From Streptomyces tsukubensis (GTDB taxonomy: Bacteria; Actinomycetota; Actinomycetes; Streptomycetales; Streptomycetaceae): DNA of 64,000 nt. The position numbers and the translations under genes were made by a program. The notes under the pieces were generated by a model. The model saw only the letters and a list, made by a program, of their open reading frames with translations. It made no database searches and was not told the origin of the DNA. Positions 9,119 to 41,943 of the stretch are shown in pieces (positions within the stretch are counted from its first letter, which is position 1; each line of letters opens with the position of its first letter). The stretch covers positions 6,470,501 to 6,534,500 of the forward strand of contig NZ_CP020700.1 of NCBI RefSeq assembly GCF_003932715.1. The letters are read 5' to 3'.

Positions 9119-10099
9119 ATGGACGCGGAACGACTCATCGACCTGAGTCGACACGCCCTTGCGCGAAGCAGGGCGGTTGCGGAGGTAGTGGCCGAGGCAG
9201 GGCAGGCACAGCTGCTTGCGCAGGCCGTCGGCGGACAGTTGGTGGCCTTCGGCCCGCCCGAGCTCAGCCGGGACGCGCGCGGCCTCGCCGAGACCGGCGG
9301 CCCCGGGGACCGGGACGGTACGGGCGCGGCGGAGGTGATGAGGGCCGGGAGCAGAGCCGCCCGCCTCACGGGGATCGACGATCCCCGTGAGGCGCTGATC
9401 GCGCTGGGAGCGCTCCTCGCCGATGTGGGCATCGCCCTCGTCGGGGTGGCCTGCGCCACCGACGAGGAGGGTTTGTACTGGCACTGCGTCGAGGCGATGG
9501 ACGCCGCCGACGAAGCCGGTGACCGGGTCCGGGCCATGCTGCGCAGACTCTCGGCCGCGGATCTGGCCGGACGGGATCTGCGCAGGCCTCCGGGCGTGGT
9601 CGGGGAGCGGGCGGGCCCCTGGGACGGCGGGCCGCTCGCCGGAGCGAACGGCCCTGCCGGACCGTCGGGCGACGGCAGGGTCCGGGAGCGGAGCGTCGAG
9701 CGGGGAGCCGGAGGGACAGCACGGAGCGGTGCGCTGCCGGTGGAGTCCGAGCGGCGCAACGGCCCGGCCGTTCGGGACGGCTGCGGGCATGCCTCCGGCG
9801 CGATCGGTCAGGCCCCGGCCCGGCCCGCGCCCGTCTCCCCGTCCGTCTCCGGAGCCGATTCGGTGCTGCGCACTGCTGCCCGCCCCGCGCCCGTACCGCC
9901 GTCCACCGCTCCGTCCCGGACGGACGGGCCGGTTTCGTGCCATGTGCCGCTGCCGCCCCGGGCCGGCCGGCGCGGCGGACCCCAGGCTCCGCGCCCGAGG
10001 ACGGCCGGGTATCCGGACGGACCGTCCGACGGAGCGCCGGACCACGGAGGCGCGCCGGCCGTCCCGGACACGGCCGACTCGGCGGCGGGTTCCCCGTGA
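9119..10099 (+). CDS. Hypothetical actinobacterial protein (possibly DUF6099 family)
   Basis: A 326-aa protein that is helical and Ala-rich in its first 160 residues (MDAERLIDLSRHALARSRA..., LIALGALLADVGIALVGVACATDEEGLYWHCVEAMDAADEAGDRVRAML) and disordered, Pro/Gly/Arg-rich afterwards. I see no catalytic motif, signal peptide or membrane helix. The N-terminal part resembles a Streptomyces-restricted family I recall as DUF6099; this is from memory. It has its own promoter region and a 268-bp gap behind it. Function unknown. Confidence 0.6.
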   Translation: MDAERLIDLSRHALARSRAVAEVVAEAGQAQLLAQAVGGQLVAFGPPELSRDARGLAETGGPGDRDGTGAAEVMRAGSRAARLTGIDDPREALIALGALLADVGIALVGVACATDEEGLYWHCVEAMDAADEAGDRVRAMLRRLSAADLAGRDLRRPPGVVGERAGPWDGGPLAGANGPAGPSGDGRVRERSVERGAGGTARSGALPVESERRNGPAVRDGCGHASGAIGQAPARPAPVSPSVSGADSVLRTAARPAPVPPSTAPSRTDGPVSCHVPLPPRAGRRGGPQAPRPRTAGYPDGPSDGAPDHGGAPAVPDTADSAAGSP

Positions 10100-10367
10100 C
10101 CGGTCGCCGGAACTGCGACGGGTCCCACGGCCGGTCACGGCGGAGCGCCGAGCGGCGCGGTCTGCCGGGCGGGGCCGTGAATCCGGACGTCGAGGGGCGC
10201 AGGCTCGCCGGACGGGCCGTGCCGGACGGGCCGTCCCGTACCGCGGACCGACGGCCCGGAGCGGGTGCCGGGGCCCACCCGACCGGTGGGTTTCATCCCG
10301 CCGCACGGGCGGGCCGCGGGTGAGGGCGGCGGGCTGCGCAGACCCGACGGGGTGCAGGATGGAGGGT

Positions 10368-11291
10368 ATGGAACTCCGCATCTTCACCGAACCCCAGCAG
10401 GGCGCGAGCTACGACACGCTGCTGACCGTCGCCAAGGCCACCGAGGACCTCGGCTTCGACGCCTTTTTCCGCTCCGACCACTATCTCGCCATGGGGTCCG
10501 CCGACGGGCTGCCCGGCCCGACCGACGCCTGGATCACCCTGGCCGGGCTCGCCCGGGAGACCAGCCGGATCCGGCTCGGGACGCTGATGACGGCCGGGAC
10601 GTTCCGGCTCCCCGGAGTCCTCGCCATCCAGGTCGCGCAGGTGGACCGGATGTCGGGCGGCCGGGTCGAACTGGGACTGGGCGCCGGCTGGTTCGAGGAG
10701 GAGCACAAGGCGTACGGCATCCCCTTCCCCAAGGAGAAGTTCGCCCGGCTGGAGGAGCAGCTGGCCATCGTCACCGGGCTGTGGGACACCCCGGTCGGCG
10801 ACACCTTCTCGTACGACGGCACGCACTACCGGCTCACCGACTCGCCCGCGCTCCCCAAGCCCGTGAACGGCCGGGTGCCGGTGCTGATCGGCGGTCACGG
10901 GGCCACCCGCACCCCCCGCCTGGCCGCGCGGTACGCGGACGAGTTCAACATCCCCTTCGCCTCCGTGGAGGACACCGAGCGGCAGTTCGGGCGGGTCAGG
11001 GCCGCCGCCGAGGCCCAGGGGCGCGGTCCCGACGAGCTCGTGTACTCGAATGCCCTGGTGGTCTGCGTCGGCCGGAACGACGCCGAGGTGGCGCGACGGG
11101 CCGCGGCGATCGGCCGGGAAGTGGACGAGCTGAAGACCAACGGGCTGGCGGGTTCGCCCGCCGAGGTCGTCGACAAGATCGGACAGTACGCCGCCGTCGG
11201 CTCCTCCCGGATCTACCTCCAGATCCTCGACCTGTCCGACCTCGACCATCTGGAACTGATCTCTGCCGAGGTCCAGTCCCGACTGGGCTGA
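10368..11291 (+). CDS. Luciferase-like, F420-dependent oxidoreductase
   Basis: A 307-aa TIM-barrel protein of the luciferase-like family. It starts MELRIFTEPQQGASYDTLLTV and shows FFRSDHYLAM, the substrate-side segment RIRLGTLMTAGTFRLPGVLA, and SGGRVELGLGAGWFEEEH, all typical of F420-binding LLM oxidoreductases in actinomycetes. Substrate unknown. Two ATGs are possible (10359 and 10368); I prefer 10368 by family start, though GGAGGG is very close to it. The next gene begins four bases after the stop, suggesting an operon with the homocysteine methyltransferase. Confidence 0.85.
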   Translation: MELRIFTEPQQGASYDTLLTVAKATEDLGFDAFFRSDHYLAMGSADGLPGPTDAWITLAGLARETSRIRLGTLMTAGTFRLPGVLAIQVAQVDRMSGGRVELGLGAGWFEEEHKAYGIPFPKEKFARLEEQLAIVTGLWDTPVGDTFSYDGTHYRLTDSPALPKPVNGRVPVLIGGHGATRTPRLAARYADEFNIPFASVEDTERQFGRVRAAAEAQGRGPDELVYSNALVVCVGRNDAEVARRAAAIGREVDELKTNGLAGSPAEVVDKIGQYAAVGSSRIYLQILDLSDLDHLELISAEVQSRLG

Positions 11292-11295
11292 GCCC

Positions 11296-12234
<939 letters not shown>

Positions 12235-12350
12235 ACTCCGCCCCCGGACCCGAGGCGAGGGGGGCGAGAAGGGGCGGCAGGCGCCGCCCCTCCCCGGAGC
12301 GGGGCAATATTCCCGGCAACCGCAGTCCCGAACCCTCCATAATCGGTCAG

Positions 12351-13949
12351 GTGTTCTTGACGATCCGAACGACCGGTACCACCGAACGTCCCGCCACCGA
12401 CCTGGGCTTTCTGCTGCACAAGCACCCCGGCAAGGCGCAGTCGTTCTCCACCTCGCACGGGCGGGCGCACGTCTTCTATCCCGAGGCGTCCGCCGAGTGC
12501 TGCACGGCCGCACTGCTTCTGGAGGTCGATCCGGTGGCGCTGGTGCGGCGCAGCAAGGAGAAGGGGCGCGGCGGCGCGCCCGATGCCGCCCTGGCGCAGT
12601 ACGTCAACGACCGCCCCTACGCTGCCTCCTCCCTGCTGGCCGTGGCGATGAGCACGGTCTTCAGGAGTGCCTTGCGCGGACAGTGCGCTGCCCTCCCGGA
12701 GCGGGCAGAGACCCCGATGCCGCTCCGTATCGAGGTGCCGGCCCTCCCCGCCCGCGGCGGCCCCGAACTGGTCGCCAAGCTCTTCGGACCGCTGGGCTGG
12801 ACCCGGGTCGAGGCCCGCCCGGTGGCGCTGGACGAACAGTTCCCCGAATGGGGCGACTCGCGTTACGTACAGCTGGTCCTGGAGGGCGAACTGCGGCTCT
12901 CCGACGCGCTGCGGCAGCTGTACGTCCTGCTCCCGGTCCTCGACGACGCCAAGCACTACTGGGTCGCACCGGACGAGGTCGACAAACTGATCCGGGCCGG
13001 CGAGGGGTGGCTCGCCGACCACCCCGAACGCGCGCTCATCACCAACCGCTATCTCTCCCGCCGCTGGAGCCTGACCCGGCAGGCCGCGGAACGGCTGGAA
13101 CTCGTCCGGCTGGCCGAGGCCGAGCACCTCGACGTCGAGGACGTCGACAACGCCGTGGACGAGACCACCGACACCGAGGAACGGCCCGTTCCGCTCGCCG
13201 AACAGCGGCGGGAGGCGATCGTGGCGGCACTGCGAGCCGCGGGCGCGAGCCGTGTCCTCGACCTGGGCTGCGGACAGGGCCGGCTGGTGCAGGCGCTCCT
13301 CAAGGACGTCCGCTTCACCGAGATCGTCGGCGTCGACGTCTCCGTACGGGCCCTGACGGTCGCGGCACGCCGCCTCAAACTGGACCGCATGGGCGAACGG
13401 CAGGCCGGCCGGGTGACCCTCCTCCAGGGGGCGCTCACCTACACCGACACCCGGCTCAAGGGCTACGACGCCGCTGTGCTCAGCGAGGTCGTCGAGCATC
13501 TCGACCTGCCGCGGCTGCCCGCGCTGGTGTACGCGGTCTTCCGCTCGGCCCGGCCCGCCACCGTCGTCGTGACCACGCCGAACGTCGAGTACAACGTCCG
13601 CTGGGAGACCCTGCCCGCCGGACACGTACGCCATGGGGACCACCGCTTCGAATGGACCCGGGAGGAGTTCCGGGCCTGGGCGGACGAGGTCTGCGTACGG
13701 CACGGCTACACCGTGGCGTACCTGCCGGTGGGAACCGACGACCCCGAGGTGGGCCCGCCGACCCAGATGGCGGTCTTCACCCGTACCGACGAGGACGGCA
13801 CCCCCGGCCGCGGCAACGGCCGCACCGGGAACACCCGTACCGAGAACGTTCCTGTCGAAAGCACCCACGACACCCACGACACCCGCGACACCCGCGACAC
13901 CGGCCGTACCGGAGACGACGGCAGCGAGAAGGAGGCGAAGGCCGCATGA
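12351..13949 (+). CDS. hen1: Hen1, 3'-terminal RNA ribose 2'-O-methyltransferase
   Basis: A 532-aa bacterial Hen1. The N-terminal half (about residues 1-240) is the Hen1 domain that activates the Pnkp ligase. The C-terminal half is a SAM methyltransferase with LDLGCGQGRL near residue 303 and the metal-binding motif EVVEHLDLPRLPA near residue 379. It 2'-O-methylates the 3' end at an RNA break before Pnkp seals it, so the repaired RNA resists recutting. The C-terminus carries a His-Asp-Thr tandem repeat. I use GTG 12351; TTG 12357 is an alternative. The stop overlaps the pnkp start (ATGA), which fits a stoichiometric Pnkp-Hen1 complex. Confidence 0.92.
   Translation: MFLTIRTTGTTERPATDLGFLLHKHPGKAQSFSTSHGRAHVFYPEASAECCTAALLLEVDPVALVRRSKEKGRGGAPDAALAQYVNDRPYAASSLLAVAMSTVFRSALRGQCAALPERAETPMPLRIEVPALPARGGPELVAKLFGPLGWTRVEARPVALDEQFPEWGDSRYVQLVLEGELRLSDALRQLYVLLPVLDDAKHYWVAPDEVDKLIRAGEGWLADHPERALITNRYLSRRWSLTRQAAERLELVRLAEAEHLDVEDVDNAVDETTDTEERPVPLAEQRREAIVAALRAAGASRVLDLGCGQGRLVQALLKDVRFTEIVGVDVSVRALTVAARRLKLDRMGERQAGRVTLLQGALTYTDTRLKGYDAAVLSEVVEHLDLPRLPALVYAVFRSARPATVVVTTPNVEYNVRWETLPAGHVRHGDHRFEWTREEFRAWADEVCVRHGYTVAYLPVGTDDPEVGPPTQMAVFTRTDEDGTPGRGNGRTGNTRTENVPVESTHDTHDTRDTRDTGRTGDDGSEKEAKAA
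13864..13899 (+). repeat. Four 9-bp units encoding His-Asp-Thr/Arg-Asp-Thr in hen1
   Basis: Four consecutive 9-mers of CCC(A/G)CGACA type encode the HDT/RDT tail just before the end of Hen1. Each unit is three codons long, so slippage would change linker length without breaking the frame. Confidence 0.8.
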
Positions 13950-35622: not shown

Positions 35623-35940
35623 TCAGCCGTTGACCCAGAGTTCGGCCCGGCCGTCACCGAGCGGACGGCACTGCGTCGACACCAAGTCGCCGACGCTGAG
35701 GGAGGCGAGGTAACAGGCCTGGTAGCTGGGGTACGTGGCGACATAGGTCCAGGCGCTCGCCGTCGCCGCCGCCGGGGCGGTACCGGGGGTGGCGGCCGAA
35801 GCGGCGGCCGGAAACGTGAGAGCGGCCGCGGCTGCGAGCACCGCTGTCGCGGCGAAGCGGCCGAGAGTGCGCGACGAGCCGACTGCGCCGACCGAGCGGA
35901 CTGCGCTGGGGGAGCGGAGGGTGCCGATTAAGGGGGACAT
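35623..35940 (-). CDS. Small secreted protein with a TTA codon
   Basis: A 105-aa protein. A signal peptide spans about residues 25-50 (LGRFAATAVLAAAAALTFPAAASA), leaving a mature part of about 55 residues with two cysteines (YQACYLASLSVGDLVSTQCRPLGDGRAELWVNG). It looks like small Streptomyces extracellular proteins; no enzymatic motif is seen. Codon 4 is TTA (35931-35929), a bldA-dependent codon, suggesting expression tied to development. ATG 35938-35940 follows GAGAGGAAAG. Function unknown. Confidence 0.72.
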   Translation of the reverse strand: MSPLIGTLRSPSAVRSVGAVGSSRTLGRFAATAVLAAAAALTFPAAASAATPGTAPAAATASAWTYVATYPSYQACYLASLSVGDLVSTQCRPLGDGRAELWVNG

Positions 35941-36537: not shown

Positions 36538-36628
36538 GATCGGTCGGCCGGTCTGCCCGACCGGCCGGCTGTTAAGTTTCCCGGGCTTTCGCCGGACACG
36601 GCCGGCCGATTCCTGTGCACGACCGCGA

Positions 36629-37390
36629 TCACCGGTCGTCGGCGGCCCCGGGCCCACGTGCCGATTCCGTGCCCGCCAGGGGAGCGGGCGCCCCCGCGGC
36701 CGGAGCCGCCTCGCTCCGGCTCTCCACCACGACCGCCGACTCCAGCGGCGAGGCGATCTCCTGGGCCTTGCTGCGGGACGCCCAGTCGCGGATACCGATG
36801 ACGACCATCACGAAGAAGATCGCGTACACGATTCCGGAGAAGTACAGCTCGGAGTGGATCGCGAGCGGCACCCCGACCAGGTCGACGGCCAGCCAGGCGA
36901 ACCAGAACTCCACGTACCGCCGGGCCTGGGAGTACATCGCCAGGATGGAGCCGACGAAGATCCACGCGTCGGCGAGGACCATCCACCACGGGGCCCCCGG
37001 GTAGAACGACGCGTCGGTCGCCTTCAGCAGGGAGGCGAACGCGAAGGTGCCGACGACCATGATGGTGAGCAGGACGACCCGCTCGCGCCACGACGCCCAG
37101 CGGACGTTGATCGCGCCTTCCTTCTCCCGGCTGCGGCGCCACGTCGCCCAGCCCCACGACGCCGATGCTATGATCACAACTTGCCGTGCGGCGTTGCCTC
37201 CGAGGTCGACGTTCAGACTCGCGATCAGCAGCAGCACCGATCCGAGGATCTGCACCGGCCAGGCGATCAACAGCCGCCGCAGCGCCAGCCACACCGTCGC
37301 CAGGGCCAGGATGTTGCCGAGGAAGTCGGACCAGTAGACGTCCAGGCCGAAGAAGCTGAATTGCTCGTTCAGCCACGAGAATGCACTCAT
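36629..37390 (-). CDS. PnuC family transporter, probable riboflavin importer (RibM-like)
   Basis: A 253-aa membrane protein with about seven helices. It has PnuC-type features such as ASASWGWATWRRS and PWWMVLADAWIFVGSILAMYSQARRYVEFWFAWLAVDLVGVPLAIHS. PnuC proteins carry nicotinamide riboside, but actinobacterial RibM members carry riboflavin. Position next to a riboflavin kinase and flavin enzymes favours riboflavin. An Ala/Pro/Glu-rich tail follows the last helix. ATG 37390 has AAAGG about eight bases upstream. The 116-bp gap before it holds a small hairpin (37438-37452) but no FMN riboswitch that I can recognise. Confidence 0.82.
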   Translation of the reverse strand: MSAFSWLNEQFSFFGLDVYWSDFLGNILALATVWLALRRLLIAWPVQILGSVLLLIASLNVDLGGNAARQVVIIASASWGWATWRRSREKEGAINVRWASWRERVVLLTIMVVGTFAFASLLKATDASFYPGAPWWMVLADAWIFVGSILAMYSQARRYVEFWFAWLAVDLVGVPLAIHSELYFSGIVYAIFFVMVVIGIRDWASRSKAQEIASPLESAVVVESRSEAAPAAGAPAPLAGTESARGPGAADDR

Positions 37391-37506
37391 TACTCACACC
37401 TTTGTTCGTACGGAGCAAGGCTGGGAGTGGGGGGTGTGGCCCGGAACGGGCCGTTCAGGGAGCAGGGAGTCCGGCTGTGCGCGCCGAGCCCGTGCAGAGG
37501 GACGTC

Positions 37507-37965
37507 TCAGACGGAGACGGTTTTCCGGTACGCGGCGAGTGCGCCGGTGAGGATGCGGCGCCCCCGGCCGGAGGCCAGCAGGGCCTCCGACCACAGGACG
37601 TCCCGCCGGGCGGCGCATACCAGATCGTCGGGCGACGCGAACTTCACCGTGTCCCGGATCCGTGCCACGAACCACAGTCCGACGCGCTCTCCGTAGAACT
37701 CGTCGGCCGTGTCGTGGCAGTACACCTCGACATGGACTTCCGTCGTATCGCAGAAAGTGGGGTTCGACCCGATGCTGATCGTTCCACGGTGGACGACGCC
37801 GCTCGCAAGGCGTACGACCCAGCCGCTGTAGATCGCGGGCGGTGGGATCCGCGAACCCGGATCCGCCGTGACGTTCGCGGTGGGGAATCCGAGCCCGCGG
37901 CCCCGGCCGGCACCGTGCACCACCGCACCCGTGAGGTGCACGATGCCGGTCGGGGTGTCAGCCAT
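37507..37965 (-). CDS. Stand-alone riboflavin kinase
   Basis: A 152-aa protein consisting only of the flavokinase domain: GRGRGLGFPTANV near residue 17, SIGSNPTF near residue 60, and VEVYCHDTADEFYGERVGLWFVARIRDTVKF. Most bacteria use the bifunctional RibF kinase/FAD synthetase; here the adenylyltransferase half is absent. It would convert riboflavin to FMN, the cofactor needed by the neighbouring reductase and monooxygenase. ATG 37965 lies inside the flavin reductase gene (8-nt overlap), so translation is coupled. Confidence 0.88.
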   Translation of the reverse strand: MADTPTGIVHLTGAVVHGAGRGRGLGFPTANVTADPGSRIPPPAIYSGWVVRLASGVVHRGTISIGSNPTFCDTTEVHVEVYCHDTADEFYGERVGLWFVARIRDTVKFASPDDLVCAARRDVLWSEALLASGRGRRILTGALAAYRKTVSV

Positions 37966-38494
37966 GGGGAATGAGCTCGCGGAACTGGCTGGTGTGGAAG
38001 ACGAGCGGCTCCACACCGGAGAACAGCTCGGCCGTCAGCAGCTCCATCAGCACGATCTCGTGATCGCCGCCGTCGTAGACCGCGTTCACCCGGGCCGTCA
38101 GCCAGAGCGCGGCGTCCCCGATCAGCACCGCGCCGTCGGGCGTCGACTGCCAGGAGACGCCGTCGAAGCGGTTGCCGTTCCGGGACGCCAGCCGCCGGCA
38201 CAGCGCCCCCTGACCGTGGCTGAGCACGCTCAGCCCCAGCACGGGCGCCTCCGCGAGGAGCGGCCACGTGGTCGACGTACGGGCCACGCTGACCGCGGCC
38301 ATGGGCGGTTCCAGCGAGATCGACACGAACGAGCTCGCCGCGAACCCGACCGGCTCGTTCCCGCGCAGCGCGCCGATCGCGACGACACCGGTCGGGTAGG
38401 CCCCGAACGCCTGTCGCAGCGTTGCCCCGTCCAGCTCCGCCGGCGCCGGCACCCGGGACGGGTTGTGGGCAGACGTGGCCATGTTGCTCACCAT
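37958..38494 (-). CDS. Flavin reductase (FMN-binding split-barrel)
   Basis: A 178-aa HpaC/RutF-like flavin reductase: LRQAFGAYPTGVVAIGALRGNEPVGFAASSFVSISLEPPMAAVSVART, then SHGQGALCRRLASRNGNRFDGVSW and GDHEIVLMELLTAE. It supplies reduced flavin to a partner monooxygenase, here the luciferase-like enzyme 22 bp upstream. ATG 38494 has a GAGGAGAGG just ahead. The stop overlaps the riboflavin kinase start. Confidence 0.88.
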   Translation of the reverse strand: MVSNMATSAHNPSRVPAPAELDGATLRQAFGAYPTGVVAIGALRGNEPVGFAASSFVSISLEPPMAAVSVARTSTTWPLLAEAPVLGLSVLSHGQGALCRRLASRNGNRFDGVSWQSTPDGAVLIGDAALWLTARVNAVYDGGDHEIVLMELLTAELFSGVEPLVFHTSQFRELIPHG

Positions 38495-38516
38495 CCTCTC
38501 CTCGCGCGTTCCGTAC

Positions 38517-39863
38517 TCAGTGCCGGTACCGGGCCGCCGGGTGGCTGTCCGGCAGCGCGCTGTCGGACGCCCCGGTGAGGCGCTCGCGCAGGCTCTCGCC
38601 CTCCGTGTACTCACCGCGGAAGACCCCGCGGGACCGCAGGATCGGCAGGACCGACTCGACGAAGTCCGTCGTCGAGGTGGGCTGGACCGTCGGGGAGAGC
38701 AGGAAACCGTCGAGGTCGGCGCCCTCCGCGAGCGCACAGATCTCGTCCGCGATCTCCTCCGCCGTACCGACGACCGGCCGCGCCCCGACCCCGTGGGTGT
38801 GCCAGTCGGCCAGGACATCGCCGACCGTCTTGTCCGCGAAACGGGCCACCTGGGTCTGCGACAGCTCGGTGGACAGCTCCGCCATGGGCGTCTCGGGCGC
38901 ATACGACGAGAGGTCGAGCCCGGTGAACATGGCGTAGCTGGCGACGGTCACCTCGGAACGCTGGGCGTCGAGGATCCCCTGGTAGCGACGGTGCGCATCC
39001 TGCGTCGTCGCACCGACGACACAGGAGAACGCCGACATCACCTTCACGTCGTCGGCCCGGCGGCCCGCCTTGACCGCCTCCTCACGGATGGCGGACGTGT
39101 GCCCGGCGAGCTGCGCGACCGAACCGCTGCCCACGAACATGCACTCGCCGTGCCGGCCGCCGACCCGGCGTCCGGCCGGGGACGCCCCGGCCTGGAACAG
39201 CACCGGCGTGCCCTGCGGGGAGCGCGCGGTGTTGCCGTACCCCTCCGAGCTGAAGAACGGACCCTTGTGGGTGACGAGGTGCACCTTGGACGGATCGGCG
39301 AACCGCCCCTCCTTGTCCTTCTCCAGCGCGTCCGGCTCCCAGGCGCCCTCCCAGTACTTGTAGACCAGCTCCAGGAAGTCCTCGGCCATCCGGTAGCGGT
39401 CGTCGTGCGCCACCATGTCCATACCGAAGGCCTTGACCGCGGTGTCGGCCGTGCCGGTCGTCACGATGTTCCAGCCGATCCGGCCGCCGGAGAGCTGGTC
39501 GAGCGTGGCGAGCCGGCGCGCGAAGGCGTACGGGGGCTCCACCAGCACCGAGCCCGTCATCACGAGACCCAGATTGGTCGTCGTGGACAGCAGCGCGGAC
39601 GCCACGACTATCGGGTCCAGCCGCGGCAGGTCGAGGGTCTCCTCCGTGGCGATCGCCGGGCGGGTGCCGTCGATCTCCGACCAGCCCCAGGCGTCGGCGA
39701 GGAACAGGAAGTCCAGCTTGGCGTCCTCGCAGACGGCGGCGAGGTCGCGCCAGTACTCCAGGGTGTCGAAGAGGTGCCGCCGGCTGTCGGGGTGGCGCCA
39801 GGTGGCCGTGCCGCTCGCGTTGGTCTGGGCGTTCTCGAAAACGCCGATCTTGAGGTTCCTCAT
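38517..39863 (-). CDS. Luciferase-like FMN-dependent monooxygenase, candidate riboflavin lyase (RcaE-like)
   Basis: A 448-aa NtaA/SnaA/DszA-type monooxygenase. Motifs include FLFLADAWGW, VSTTT-like segment VASALLSTTTNLGLVMTGSVLVEPPYAFARRLATLDQLSGGRIGWNIVTT, and GTPVLFQAGASPAGRR. In Microbacterium maritypicum a member of this family (RcaE) splits riboflavin into lumichrome and ribose using reduced FMN and oxygen. The neighbours here, flavin reductase, riboflavin kinase, ribokinase and a PnuC transporter, fit exactly that chemistry. Family alone would also allow sulfonate or chelate monooxygenases. ATG 39863 follows GGAGAACC. Confidence 0.8.
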   Translation of the reverse strand: MRNLKIGVFENAQTNASGTATWRHPDSRRHLFDTLEYWRDLAAVCEDAKLDFLFLADAWGWSEIDGTRPAIATEETLDLPRLDPIVVASALLSTTTNLGLVMTGSVLVEPPYAFARRLATLDQLSGGRIGWNIVTTGTADTAVKAFGMDMVAHDDRYRMAEDFLELVYKYWEGAWEPDALEKDKEGRFADPSKVHLVTHKGPFFSSEGYGNTARSPQGTPVLFQAGASPAGRRVGGRHGECMFVGSGSVAQLAGHTSAIREEAVKAGRRADDVKVMSAFSCVVGATTQDAHRRYQGILDAQRSEVTVASYAMFTGLDLSSYAPETPMAELSTELSQTQVARFADKTVGDVLADWHTHGVGARPVVGTAEEIADEICALAEGADLDGFLLSPTVQPTSTTDFVESVLPILRSRGVFRGEYTEGESLRERLTGASDSALPDSHPAARYRH

Positions 39864-39906
39864 GGGTGGTTCTCCGTAGTGCTGGTGGGTGACCCGTGGG
39901 GTGGTG

Positions 39907-40827
39907 TCAGAAAGCAGAGGTGACCGCGGGTGCGTCGAGCTGTGCCGCGTACGGCATGGAGGTCTGTGCGCCGAGGCCGGTAGTGGTGTACGAGGCCGCC
40001 CGCACGGCGCGCTCCACCGCGGCCGGCAGGTCCGTACCCCGTCCGAGGGCGTCCGCGAGGGCGCCGCAGAAGGTGTCGCCTGCACCCACGGTGTCGACGG
40101 CGTCCACCACGGGCGCGGGGATGTGCATGGTGTCCGTGCTGTGTGCCTCTTTCAGTACGGCTCCGTCCGCCCCGAGCGTCACCACGACCGCCCGGCACGG
40201 GAGCGCGGCGCGTACCAGCAGCTCCCGGGCCTCGTCGACGGTCGCGGGCGGTTCGGTCCCGAGCAGCGAGGCCAGCTCGCCGCGGTTGGGGACGAGGACG
40301 TCGACGGCGGCCAGGACCTCCGGGCCGGCCGGCCGGGCGGGCGCCGGGTTGAGGACGACGAAGCCGCCCTGGTCCCGGGCCCGCAGGACCGCGGCCGCGA
40401 CCACCTCGGGCGCGATTTCGTTCTGGACGAGGACGATCTCTCCGGGCGACCGGACGAGCCGGGCCGGCAGGTCCTGGACACCGAGTTCGGCGTTGGCCCC
40501 CGGATTCACGACGATGGTGTTCTCGCCCGCGTCGTCGACGACGACCGCGGCGATCCCGGTCGTGGTCCGCTCGTCCGGCAGTACGGCTTCGACGTCCACG
40601 CCTTCGGCCGTGAGCGCGTCGAGGATGGCGGCCGCGTCCGCACCGACCCGGGCGACGAGACGCACCCGTGATCCGAGCCGGGCGGCCGCGACGGCCTGGT
40701 TGGCACCCTTGCCGCCGACACCCTCCACGAAGCGTCGCGCGAGCACGGTCTCACCGGGGTGCGGCAGGTCCTCGACGGTCAGGACGAAGTCGCGGTTCAC
40801 CGAACCGACGACGGTGATGAGCGACAT
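39907..40827 (-). CDS. Ribokinase (PfkB family)
   Basis: A 306-aa PfkB sugar kinase with GSVNRDFVLTVEDLPHPGET, GGKGANQAVAAARLGSRV near residue 38 and the catalytic DTVGAGDTFCGAL near residue 240. These are ribokinase-type motifs. It phosphorylates ribose to ribose 5-phosphate. No ribose transporter is nearby; in this operon ribose could come from riboflavin cleavage by the next gene. ATG 40827 has AAGGAG six bases upstream. It is the first gene of the operon and is divergent from a LacI regulator. Confidence 0.9.
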   Translation of the reverse strand: MSLITVVGSVNRDFVLTVEDLPHPGETVLARRFVEGVGGKGANQAVAAARLGSRVRLVARVGADAAAILDALTAEGVDVEAVLPDERTTTGIAAVVVDDAGENTIVVNPGANAELGVQDLPARLVRSPGEIVLVQNEIAPEVVAAAVLRARDQGGFVVLNPAPARPAGPEVLAAVDVLVPNRGELASLLGTEPPATVDEARELLVRAALPCRAVVVTLGADGAVLKEAHSTDTMHIPAPVVDAVDTVGAGDTFCGALADALGRGTDLPAAVERAVRAASYTTTGLGAQTSMPYAAQLDAPAVTSAF

Positions 40828-40839
40828 TTGGACTCCTTG

Positions 40840-40853
40840 GGAGAACGATTTCC
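40840..40853. promoter_or_regulatory. LacI-type operator in front of the ribokinase-led operon
   Basis: GGAGAACGATTTCC is an imperfect dyad (10 of 14 positions) with the central CG typical of LacI-family operators. It lies just upstream of the ribokinase Shine-Dalgarno and at the expected transcription start, so binding by the divergent LacI protein would block the operon. Confidence 0.55.
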
Positions 40854-40858
40854 GACAT

Positions 40859-40885
40859 GCTGTACCAGGGTTCCCGCGCCGTCAA
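40859..40885 (-). promoter_or_regulatory. Candidate promoter of the riboflavin-related operon
   Basis: On the minus strand TTGACG (40885-40880) is followed after 15 bp by TACAGC (40864-40859), or after 17 bp by CAGCAT. Initiation would then fall within or at the edge of the LacI-type operator. Confidence 0.4.
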
Positions 40886-40956
40886 GTAGCCTCGTGCTTC
40901 CTGATCGCCCCGACGCCGTGGCGCATCCCCGCCCATCGACCGAGAAGGATCCCTAC

Positions 40957-41943
40957 GTGACAGCGCCCCGACTCATCGACGTGGCCGAGGCCGCCGGGGT
41001 CTCCCGCGCCACGGCGTCACGTGTGCTCGCAGGCACGCCGCGGAACGTCGATCCCGAACTCGCGCGCCGCGTCGAACAGGCGGCCCACCGGCTCGGCTAC
41101 CAGCCCAACCAGTCGGCACGGGCGCTTCGCACCGGCGCGACCGGCACCATCGGCGTCGTGGTCCCGACGCTGGCCAACCCGTACTTCGTCCAACTCGCCG
41201 ACGCCATCGCCCAGCAGGTGCGCGCCGCGGGCGGCACGCTCGTGGTCACCGACGCGGCGAACGACACCGCCATCGAGGCCGAGCAGATCGACACCCTGCT
41301 CAGCGGCCGGGTGGACGGCCTGTTCGTCGTGCCCGTCTCGGCCGACGCGTCCGGACCCGCGATCCGCGATGCCGCCGCCCGCCGTCCCGTCGTCCTCTTC
41401 GACCGGTGGGCGAAGGAGTCCGGTACCGTCGCCGTCACGCTCGACAACAAGTCCGCGGTACGGCTTCTGGTCGGCCATCTGGAGAGCATCGGCAGGCGCC
41501 GGATCGCCCTCGTCGCCGACCAGGCGTCCTCCTCCGGTGCCGAACGGGTCGCGGCCTTCACCGAGGCGCAGGGCCCCGACGCCACCACCATCCTGCTGCC
41601 CGGCTTCAGCACCGACGGGGGACGGGTGGCGGCGCGCCGCATCATCGAACAGCGCGACCGGGTCGACGCCGTCGTCTGCGGCGCGGACGTCCTCGCCGTC
41701 GGACTCGTGAGCGCCCTGCACCGCTCCTCGGTCGCCGTGCCCCGCCAGATCGCCGTCACCGGCTTCGACGACACCGAGATGCTGAAGCTCCTCGACCCGC
41801 CCATCACCTCCATCCGCCATCCCCTGTCGGCCATGGCCGAACGCGGTCTGACGCTGCTTCAGTCCCCGGCGCGCGAAAGGGCGGAGCGGATAGAGCGGTT
41901 CGCTCCCCGGCTCGTCGTCCGCGCCTCGACCGACGAATCCTGA
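40957..41943 (+). CDS. LacI family transcriptional regulator
   Basis: A 328-aa LacI-type repressor. The helix-turn-helix is LIDVAEAAGVSRATASRVLAGTPRNVDPELARRVEQAAHRLGYQPN, followed by a periplasmic-binding-protein-like sensor domain (TIGVVVPTLANPYFVQLADAI, VDGLFVVPVSAD, ITSIRHPLSAMAERG). GTG 40957 has AAGGA nine bases upstream. Divergence from the ribokinase operon and the operator between them suggest it senses ribose, a ribose phosphate or a flavin breakdown product. Confidence 0.9.
   Translation: MTAPRLIDVAEAAGVSRATASRVLAGTPRNVDPELARRVEQAAHRLGYQPNQSARALRTGATGTIGVVVPTLANPYFVQLADAIAQQVRAAGGTLVVTDAANDTAIEAEQIDTLLSGRVDGLFVVPVSADASGPAIRDAAARRPVVLFDRWAKESGTVAVTLDNKSAVRLLVGHLESIGRRRIALVADQASSSGAERVAAFTEAQGPDATTILLPGFSTDGGRVAARRIIEQRDRVDAVVCGADVLAVGLVSALHRSSVAVPRQIAVTGFDDTEMLKLLDPPITSIRHPLSAMAERGLTLLQSPARERAERIERFAPRLVVRASTDES

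Follow-up and report, generated by a model that had tools for sequence, protein, structure and literature searches.

A probable riboflavin-catabolic operon of a second architectural type, with a RibM-like PnuC protein and a divergent LacI-family gene, in Streptomyces tsukubensis

The rca cluster of Microbacterium maritypicum G10 encodes a riboflavin kinase (RcaA), a flavin reductase (RcaB), a ribokinase (RcaD) and the riboflavin lyase RcaE. In M. maritypicum a five-gene set that includes RcaE turns riboflavin into ribose and lumichrome, and in the chemistry described for RcaE a superoxide radical takes hydrogen from ribose C1′ (PMC12746152). A lumichrome-producing Microbacterium has been described in which the activity appears inducible (PMC5399262), and the rca cluster is apparently specific to Actinomycetota and Devosia (PMC12934955). 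Here we describe a related locus at positions 36629-41943 of a 64,000-nucleotide stretch of the S. tsukubensis genome (the 'window': contig NZ_CP020700.1, forward-strand positions 6,470,501 to 6,534,500, or 6.47-6.53 Mb of a 7.96-Mb contig in a genome of 8.02 Mb). From sequence comparison we propose, with a probability of about 0.82, that it is an rca riboflavin-catabolic operon of a second architectural type. What is new here is that the importer and regulator of the known rca pathway are exchanged for an unrelated PnuC-family protein and a LacI-family protein. Titles and abstract openings in the literature, with few subscription journals covered, yielded no report of a LacI/PnuC-type riboflavin-lyase operon in Streptomycetaceae.

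Gene content and the RcaE-type monooxygenase

The locus comprises six open genes, five on the minus strand and a divergent LacI-family gene on the plus strand. In order of transcription, the minus-strand genes encode a ribokinase, a monooxygenase, a flavin reductase, a riboflavin kinase and a PnuC-family transporter, with intergenic gaps of 43 bases (ribokinase/monooxygenase), 22 (monooxygenase/reductase), -8 (reductase/kinase) and 116 (kinase/transporter). An earlier note on this DNA had described this gene set, including its order, strands, overlap and divergent LacI gene, and all six genes were found as it stated:

36629..37390, minus strand: RibM/PnuX-like PnuC-family flavin facilitator (probable importer), 253 amino acids; PF04973 NMN_transporter, 7.5e-43 (Pfam)
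37507..37965, minus strand: stand-alone riboflavin kinase (RcaA-type), 152 amino acids; PF01687 Flavokinase, 1.5e-28, as sole domain; start overlaps the reductase stop
37958..38494, minus strand: flavin reductase (RcaB-type); PF01613 Flavin_Reduct, 1.4e-32; overlaps the kinase by 8 bases (start at 38494 read by eye; the Pfam scan used 37958-38485)
38517..39863, minus strand: riboflavin lyase/monooxygenase (RcaE-type), 448 amino acids; Bac_luciferase, 8.7e-42 (Pfam); match to PDB 5w48
39907..40827, minus strand: ribokinase (RcaD function), first gene of the operon; PF00294 PfkB, 2.8e-62; TIGR02152 D_ribokin_bact (NCBIfam)
40957..41943, plus strand: LacI-family regulator (probable repressor), GTG start; PF00356 LacI, 1.4e-13, and Peripla_BP_3

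The ribokinase scores 283.8 bits against TIGR02152, slightly below the cut-off of 299.65. With RcaE, flavin reductase, riboflavin kinase and ribokinase, the core rca set is complete at this locus, as in the rca clusters of M. maritypicum G10 and Devosia riboflavina; the S. tsukubensis genome has one RcaE match. The gene grouping is beyond chance, since matches to all six genes recur in 12 of the 14 related loci of Streptomycetaceae and Catenulispora described below.

The best solved relative of the monooxygenase is PDB entry 5w48, 'Riboflavin Lyase' (E-value 1.6e-208, 696 bits), followed by the dimethyl-sulfide monooxygenase DmoA (E-value 7.2e-88, 298 bits). Identity is 67% to 5w48, as against 35% to DmoA and 38% to LadA. 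Taking 62 other RcaE-type sequences (5w48 plus those of 61 loci) and 18 outgroup sequences, we called a column RcaE-specific if at least 98% of the former conserve it and no more than 10% of the latter have it; the window protein retains 49 of 49 such columns, a set defined by conservation and not by catalytic role. In a maximum-likelihood tree of 68 sequences, the protein falls inside the RcaE group with D. riboflavina and Microbacterium sequences. The earlier note had allowed for a sulfonate- or chelate-type enzyme; the nearest relative is riboflavin lyase rather than NtaA or DszA. We conclude from these alignments that the monooxygenase is of the RcaE type, with riboflavin as its predicted substrate.

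Two operon architectures and the PnuC-family importer

For locus counts we used the best 80 of at least 510 confirmed relatives from a scan of bacterial genome contigs (loci are denoted L and a number). RcaE exceeds 50% identity in 62 of these 80, and the remaining loci hold distant family members. Two architectures recur among the 62. LacI-type loci (14 among the matches listed, from Streptomyces, Kitasatospora and Catenulispora) all have LacI and ribokinase. ABC-type loci (46 among the matches listed, from Microbacterium, Leifsonia, Agromyces, Salinibacterium, Nocardioides, Devosia, Maritalea and others) all carry the three genes of an ATP-binding cassette (ABC) importer, namely an NMT1/THI5-type binding protein, an ATPase and a permease, as named from Pfam matches at L022. 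A PadR regulator is present in 45 of the 46; the contig of L059 ends too early. An annotated Maritalea plasmid is an independent instance of the ABC/PadR order.

Within the stretches compared, binding protein, permease and PadR were found in none of the 14 LacI-type loci and PnuC in none of the 46 ABC-type loci; the window operon likewise has none of the ABC importer and PadR genes of Microbacterium/Devosia-type loci. Two stray matches cross this division: one to the ATPase at L004, on the opposite strand, and a weak one to LacI at L045, some 5 kb away from RcaE. A ribokinase match leads the operon in 14 of 14 LacI-type loci, whereas in 29 of 46 ABC-type loci a ribokinase match lies near RcaE at positions other than the operon head. 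The window flavin reductase is 46-61% identical to those of ABC-type loci. ABC-type loci such as those of Microbacterium, D. riboflavina (L052), Leifsonia and Agromyces differ from the window in having an NMT1/THI5-type ABC importer and PadR where the window has a RibM-like PnuC and LacI; M. maritypicum G10 itself is absent from the compared loci. The earlier note had taken a dedicated importer to extend the described pathway. This part did not hold: because Microbacterium/Devosia-type loci already have an ABC importer and PadR beside RcaE, the dedicated importer is a replacement, not an addition.

Of the two LacI-type loci outside the 12 complete cases, the contig of L011 stops before the PnuC position, and L012 is considered below with the other irregular cases. 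The two Catenulispora loci keep the gene set with a different order after RcaE (kinase, PnuC, reductase) and a weak reductase match (39% identity), and at L007 the riboflavin kinase match is split. In the RcaE tree, the 14 LacI-type loci group with the window in a single clade (15 rows, support 100/100), so that one change of architecture suffices. This clade is nested among ABC/PadR loci with supports of 93/78 and 87/45, and the outgroup branches are very long. Derivation of the LacI type from the ABC type is favoured on this tree, the rooting of which is weak given the long outgroup branches and low nesting supports.

The loci fit the reported restriction to Actinomycetota and Devosia (PMC12934955), except for Maritalea and two marine Rhodobacterales homologues. 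The latter lie on contigs of metagenome-assembled genomes (L057 and L058; Planktomarina, Octadecabacter) that match neither architecture. Their RcaE homologues (L058:788-3623 and L057:8983-11368) are 57-59% identical and keep 48 (L058) and 46 (L057) of the 49 RcaE-specific columns. At L058 the homologue follows triosephosphate isomerase and HAD phosphatase genes; at L057 the isomerase is fragmentary and the phosphatase looks broken by eye. No further rca gene match was found in the DNA compared (3.7 kb for L058). This neighbourhood is possibly a third context of RcaE.

RibM proteins of Streptomyces davawensis and C. glutamicum are energy-independent flavin facilitators (PMC3239331). RibM and PnuC are described as hard to distinguish by sequence inspection (PMC4418817), so gene context matters. 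The S. tsukubensis genome has two PF04973 genes: that of the window, and a second inside a rib operon (ribD, ribE, ribM, ribAB, ribH, read by eye), downstream of the only flavin mononucleotide (FMN) riboswitch match in the genome. We compared 13 rca-type PnuC proteins with 11 rib-operon RibM proteins (from 10 chosen reference loci and S. tsukubensis) and with those of 10 chosen other-PnuC loci; an FMN riboswitch is present at 10/10 of the chosen RibM loci and 0/10 of the other-PnuC loci. Mean identity of the rca-type proteins is 47% to RibM (44-51) and 31% to other PnuC (28-35), and they have 35 columns in common with RibM only, as against 11 with other PnuC only. No sequence match to the PnuC protein was found in PDB at E-values up to 1. 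We conclude that the rca PnuC is RibM-like by these comparisons, in agreement with the RibM-type importer of the earlier note, and we predict that it transports riboflavin.

The rca PnuC belongs to the same PF04973 branch as RibM/PnuX of the rib operon, but it has a longer C-terminal tail (proteins of 230-257 versus 213-222 amino acids) and sits in a catabolic operon. FMN riboswitch control of that operon was considered and rejected: neither the window nor the 7 related loci scanned (of 14) gave an Rfam match at gathering score. At the rca loci scanned, PnuC is therefore controlled differently from rib-operon RibM. It is also confined to RcaE-bearing genomes within the sets searched. L007 comes from Kitasatospora griseola; across 70 genomes of that genus, among them LS1784, which is named Streptomyces, we counted RcaE in 16 and rca-type PnuC (79-84% identity) in 15. 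Counted per genome, PnuC is present in 15/16 RcaE-positive and 0/54 RcaE-negative genomes (Fisher p 2e-14, uncorrected for kinship), the sole RcaE-positive exception being the L012 genome. A further 80 genomes from the window's genus yielded no rca-type PnuC: the top match is 54% identical over a short piece, and the rest are at most 51% identical.

The ribokinase-LacI intergenic region

Between the divergent ribokinase and LacI genes we read the following elements:

40833..40838, minus strand: ribosome-binding site AAGGAG, 5 bases ahead of the ribokinase ATG (read from sequence)
40839..40854, no strand assigned: probable LacI operator, degenerate; GGGAGAACGATTTCCG on the plus strand, GGGARATCGATYTCCC in relatives; matching site in 14/14 related loci
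40857..40862, minus strand: candidate -10 box CAGCAT, 17 bases from the -35 box (from its position relative to the conserved -35)
40880..40885, minus strand: candidate -35 box TTGACG (TTGACG in 15/15 upstream regions)

LacI is present in 14/14 related loci, and 13 of these 14 fit the pattern GGGARATCGATYTCCC in the ribokinase/LacI intergenic region, L003 having one mismatch. TTGACG lies exactly 31 bases before the palindrome in all 15 upstream regions, the window included. From its position relative to the candidate -35 and -10 boxes, the palindrome would cover the transcription start, directly before the ribosome-binding site. This conserved promoter-palindrome arrangement supports the LacI control that the earlier note had proposed, with LacI as the probable repressor.

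In 8 genomes chosen from those of the 14 relatives, a search allowing 0-1 mismatch found the pattern at rca in 8/8 (7 without mismatch) and at 4 sites elsewhere, each with one mismatch and one apiece in 4 of the 8 genomes. An identical operator-like GGGAAATGGATTTCCC stands away from rca in two Kitasatospora genomes (G396:C23:17150-17165 and G397:C49:17861-17876); it is either a second LacI target or a chance occurrence. The S. tsukubensis genome has 8 sites with at most two mismatches, including that of the operon, and a reversed-pattern control gave 0. A wider LacI regulon was considered: one of the seven other sites was inspected, lies about 4 kb from a ribokinase paralogue inside an open reading frame, and was treated as chance. 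Judged from where the pattern occurs in the relatives, the LacI protein appears to be a local repressor, with a single main target. The paralogue (G000:C1:1821397-1822278, 45% identity) is the only other ribokinase match in the genome at an E-value of 1e-15 or better; by eye it adjoins ADP-ribosylglycohydrolase-like genes, and no ribose operon is recognisable there.

The arrangement resembles RbsR/RbsK pairs, in which a LacI-family regulator is likewise divergent from a ribokinase gene, and RbsR is the best NCBIfam profile of the window LacI. However, the score (178.4 bits) is far below the RbsR cut-off of 382, one pocket position differs from that of the solved ribose operon repressor 9ny7, and the window operon is without a ribose ABC transporter.

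Several observations weigh against our interpretation. An Asn that we take to contact ribose in 9ny7 (motif GNDAMAVG) is replaced by Ala in the LacI proteins of the window and all 14 loci, so ribose is uncertain as the LacI ligand. Of all the palindromes compared, that of the window is weakest, with 10 of 16 positions palindromic against 12-16 elsewhere; another 16-base dyad in the same intergenic region scores 12, above the operator, and at L003, L013 and L014 a rival dyad ties with the operator. We therefore mark the site by its conservation and spacing, not by dyad symmetry alone, and repression in S. tsukubensis may be leaky given the weak operator. A generic sigma-70 promoter scan of the region called no promoter. 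At L012 (Kitasatospora sp. SolWspMP-SS2h, 10001-13199), RcaE, ribokinase and LacI are kept while reductase, kinase and PnuC are unmatched, and no rca-type PnuC was found in that genome. Lastly, the match to ribokinase runs across two frames at L003:9050-9960 (Streptomyces sp. NBC_01669) and L158:7050-7954 (a plasmid of Streptomyces sp. NBC_00841), where the other five rca genes look open. This reflects either a broken gene or a sequencing error; sugar salvage in these strains may be lost or done by another gene.

Apart from these points, a ketosynthase-like gene (by eye) lies downstream of the kept genes at L012. Just past the end of the window operon, positions 35623-35940 (minus strand) encode a small protein of about 105 amino acids that is probably secreted (signal-peptide-like start, by eye), the last 75 residues of which match no Pfam family. 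Beyond the end of the PnuC gene, at 36541-36571 (plus strand), is a GC-rich stem-loop of 13 pairs with a T-tail on the plus strand. A scan of the region called one such site, and shuffled sequences give a mean of 1.3, so there is no excess.

Distribution, mechanism and possible roles

Under strict thresholds, RcaE was found in S. tsukubensis alone, both in a search of 392 genomes from the window's genus and in one of 396 genomes from across the phylum; these counts are lower bounds, because four candidates were scored per genome. The operon occurs in the named Streptomyces loci L002, L003 and L060. The 'streptomycete system' of the earlier note is thus too broad, with RcaE in 16 of 70 genomes of the Kitasatospora group but in 1/392 of the window's genus. 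A linear plasmid of Streptomyces sp. NBC_00841 (1.51 Mb, typed mobilizable) encodes an RcaE with 91.5% identity; all six genes are matched there and the operator is present:

NZ_CP108854.1:628991-646334: plasmid rca locus L158 (six-gene match)

This plasmid and L003 have alignable flanks of about 4.5 and 5.9 kb in common, and a plasmid search for RcaE gave 2 records. The patchy occurrence and plasmid carriage suggest horizontal spread of the operon in Streptomyces, as far as can be judged from gene distribution. Carriage by phages was considered and rejected, since the phage matches (9 records) are distant family members at 30-40% identity. Across 40 relatives, a single match to the flanking histidine kinase reaches an E-value of 1e-100 or better. 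Comparison of the translated 5-6 kb flanks with 15 related loci gave short broken matches among the matches listed and no clean empty site.

We propose the following mechanism. The RibM-like facilitator would admit riboflavin down its gradient, without energy input. Riboflavin kinase would convert part of it to FMN, from which the flavin reductase would make FMNH2; RcaE, with FMNH2 and oxygen, would cut the ribityl chain from riboflavin to give lumichrome and ribose, and the ribokinase would form ribose-5-phosphate that feeds the pentose phosphate pool. Cleavage of riboflavin would itself maintain the inward gradient. The divergent LacI protein would repress the operon through the palindrome just downstream of the -10 region, and might be released by a ribose-like product, which is a guess, or by riboflavin itself. 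As S. tsukubensis apparently also synthesises riboflavin, we expect opposite signals to govern its two RibM paralogues: the rib operon would respond to low FMN and rca to the release of LacI. A futile cycle would be avoided because FMN from the additional kinase would silence the rib operon.

A different main role is less probable, though a serious candidate: the operon would serve mainly to make lumichrome as an excreted signal, or to remove surplus riboflavin, with ribose salvage as a by-product. The Discussion of PMC12746152 raises a signal role and mentions no strain with RcaE beside lumichrome-degrading genes, and the energy-independent class of importer, odd for scavenging, could in principle export too (PMC3239331). 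S. tsukubensis itself apparently has the means of making riboflavin, judging by a rib operon whose genes were named by eye, and two relatives have a split ribokinase frame. On the other hand, a ribokinase match stands at the operon head in 14/14 LacI-type loci, which fits carbon salvage, and no lumichrome exporter was recognised within the operon. A more elaborate version, which we find doubtful, makes the operon of Kitasatospora and some Streptomyces a lumichrome factory that can be switched: RibM paralogues would be divided between acquisition (FMN riboswitch) and disposal (LacI operator), FMN raised by the kinase would shut the rib operon, and RcaE would turn imported or surplus riboflavin into an excreted signal.

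We consider it very improbable that the operon is a detoxification set whose RcaE homologue attacks roseoflavin, 8-aminoriboflavin or another riboflavin analogue. RibM of S. davawensis does import roseoflavin too (PMC3239331), which some streptomycetes make, but the window protein shares all 49 RcaE-specific columns with the riboflavin enzyme, and detoxification would require neither a ribokinase nor a flavin importer. That the monooxygenase is a sulfonate, chelate or alkane enzyme of the NtaA/DmoA family with coincidental neighbours can be set aside almost entirely: its top NCBIfam match is the broad subfamily TIGR03860 (417.9 bits, cut-off 279.7), but this name is non-discriminating because many RcaE-type relatives bear it in public records, and the identities (67% to riboflavin lyase versus 35-38% to DmoA/LadA), the tree placement and the conserved flavin-gene neighbourhood all argue against such an enzyme.

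The preferred reading, an rca operon of a second architectural type, bears on vitamin catabolism, which is little studied, and on whether RcaE serves feeding or lumichrome signalling (PMC12746152). It provides candidate columns for separating RibM-like from other PnuC proteins, a distinction called difficult by sequence alone (PMC4418817), and a defined candidate promoter-operator with its regulator in a tractable group (Kitasatospora/Streptomyces). One enzyme core is paired with two unrelated importer-regulator sets, and the ABC/PadR and PnuC/LacI versions may answer different cues, the flavin ring in one case and the sugar part in the other.

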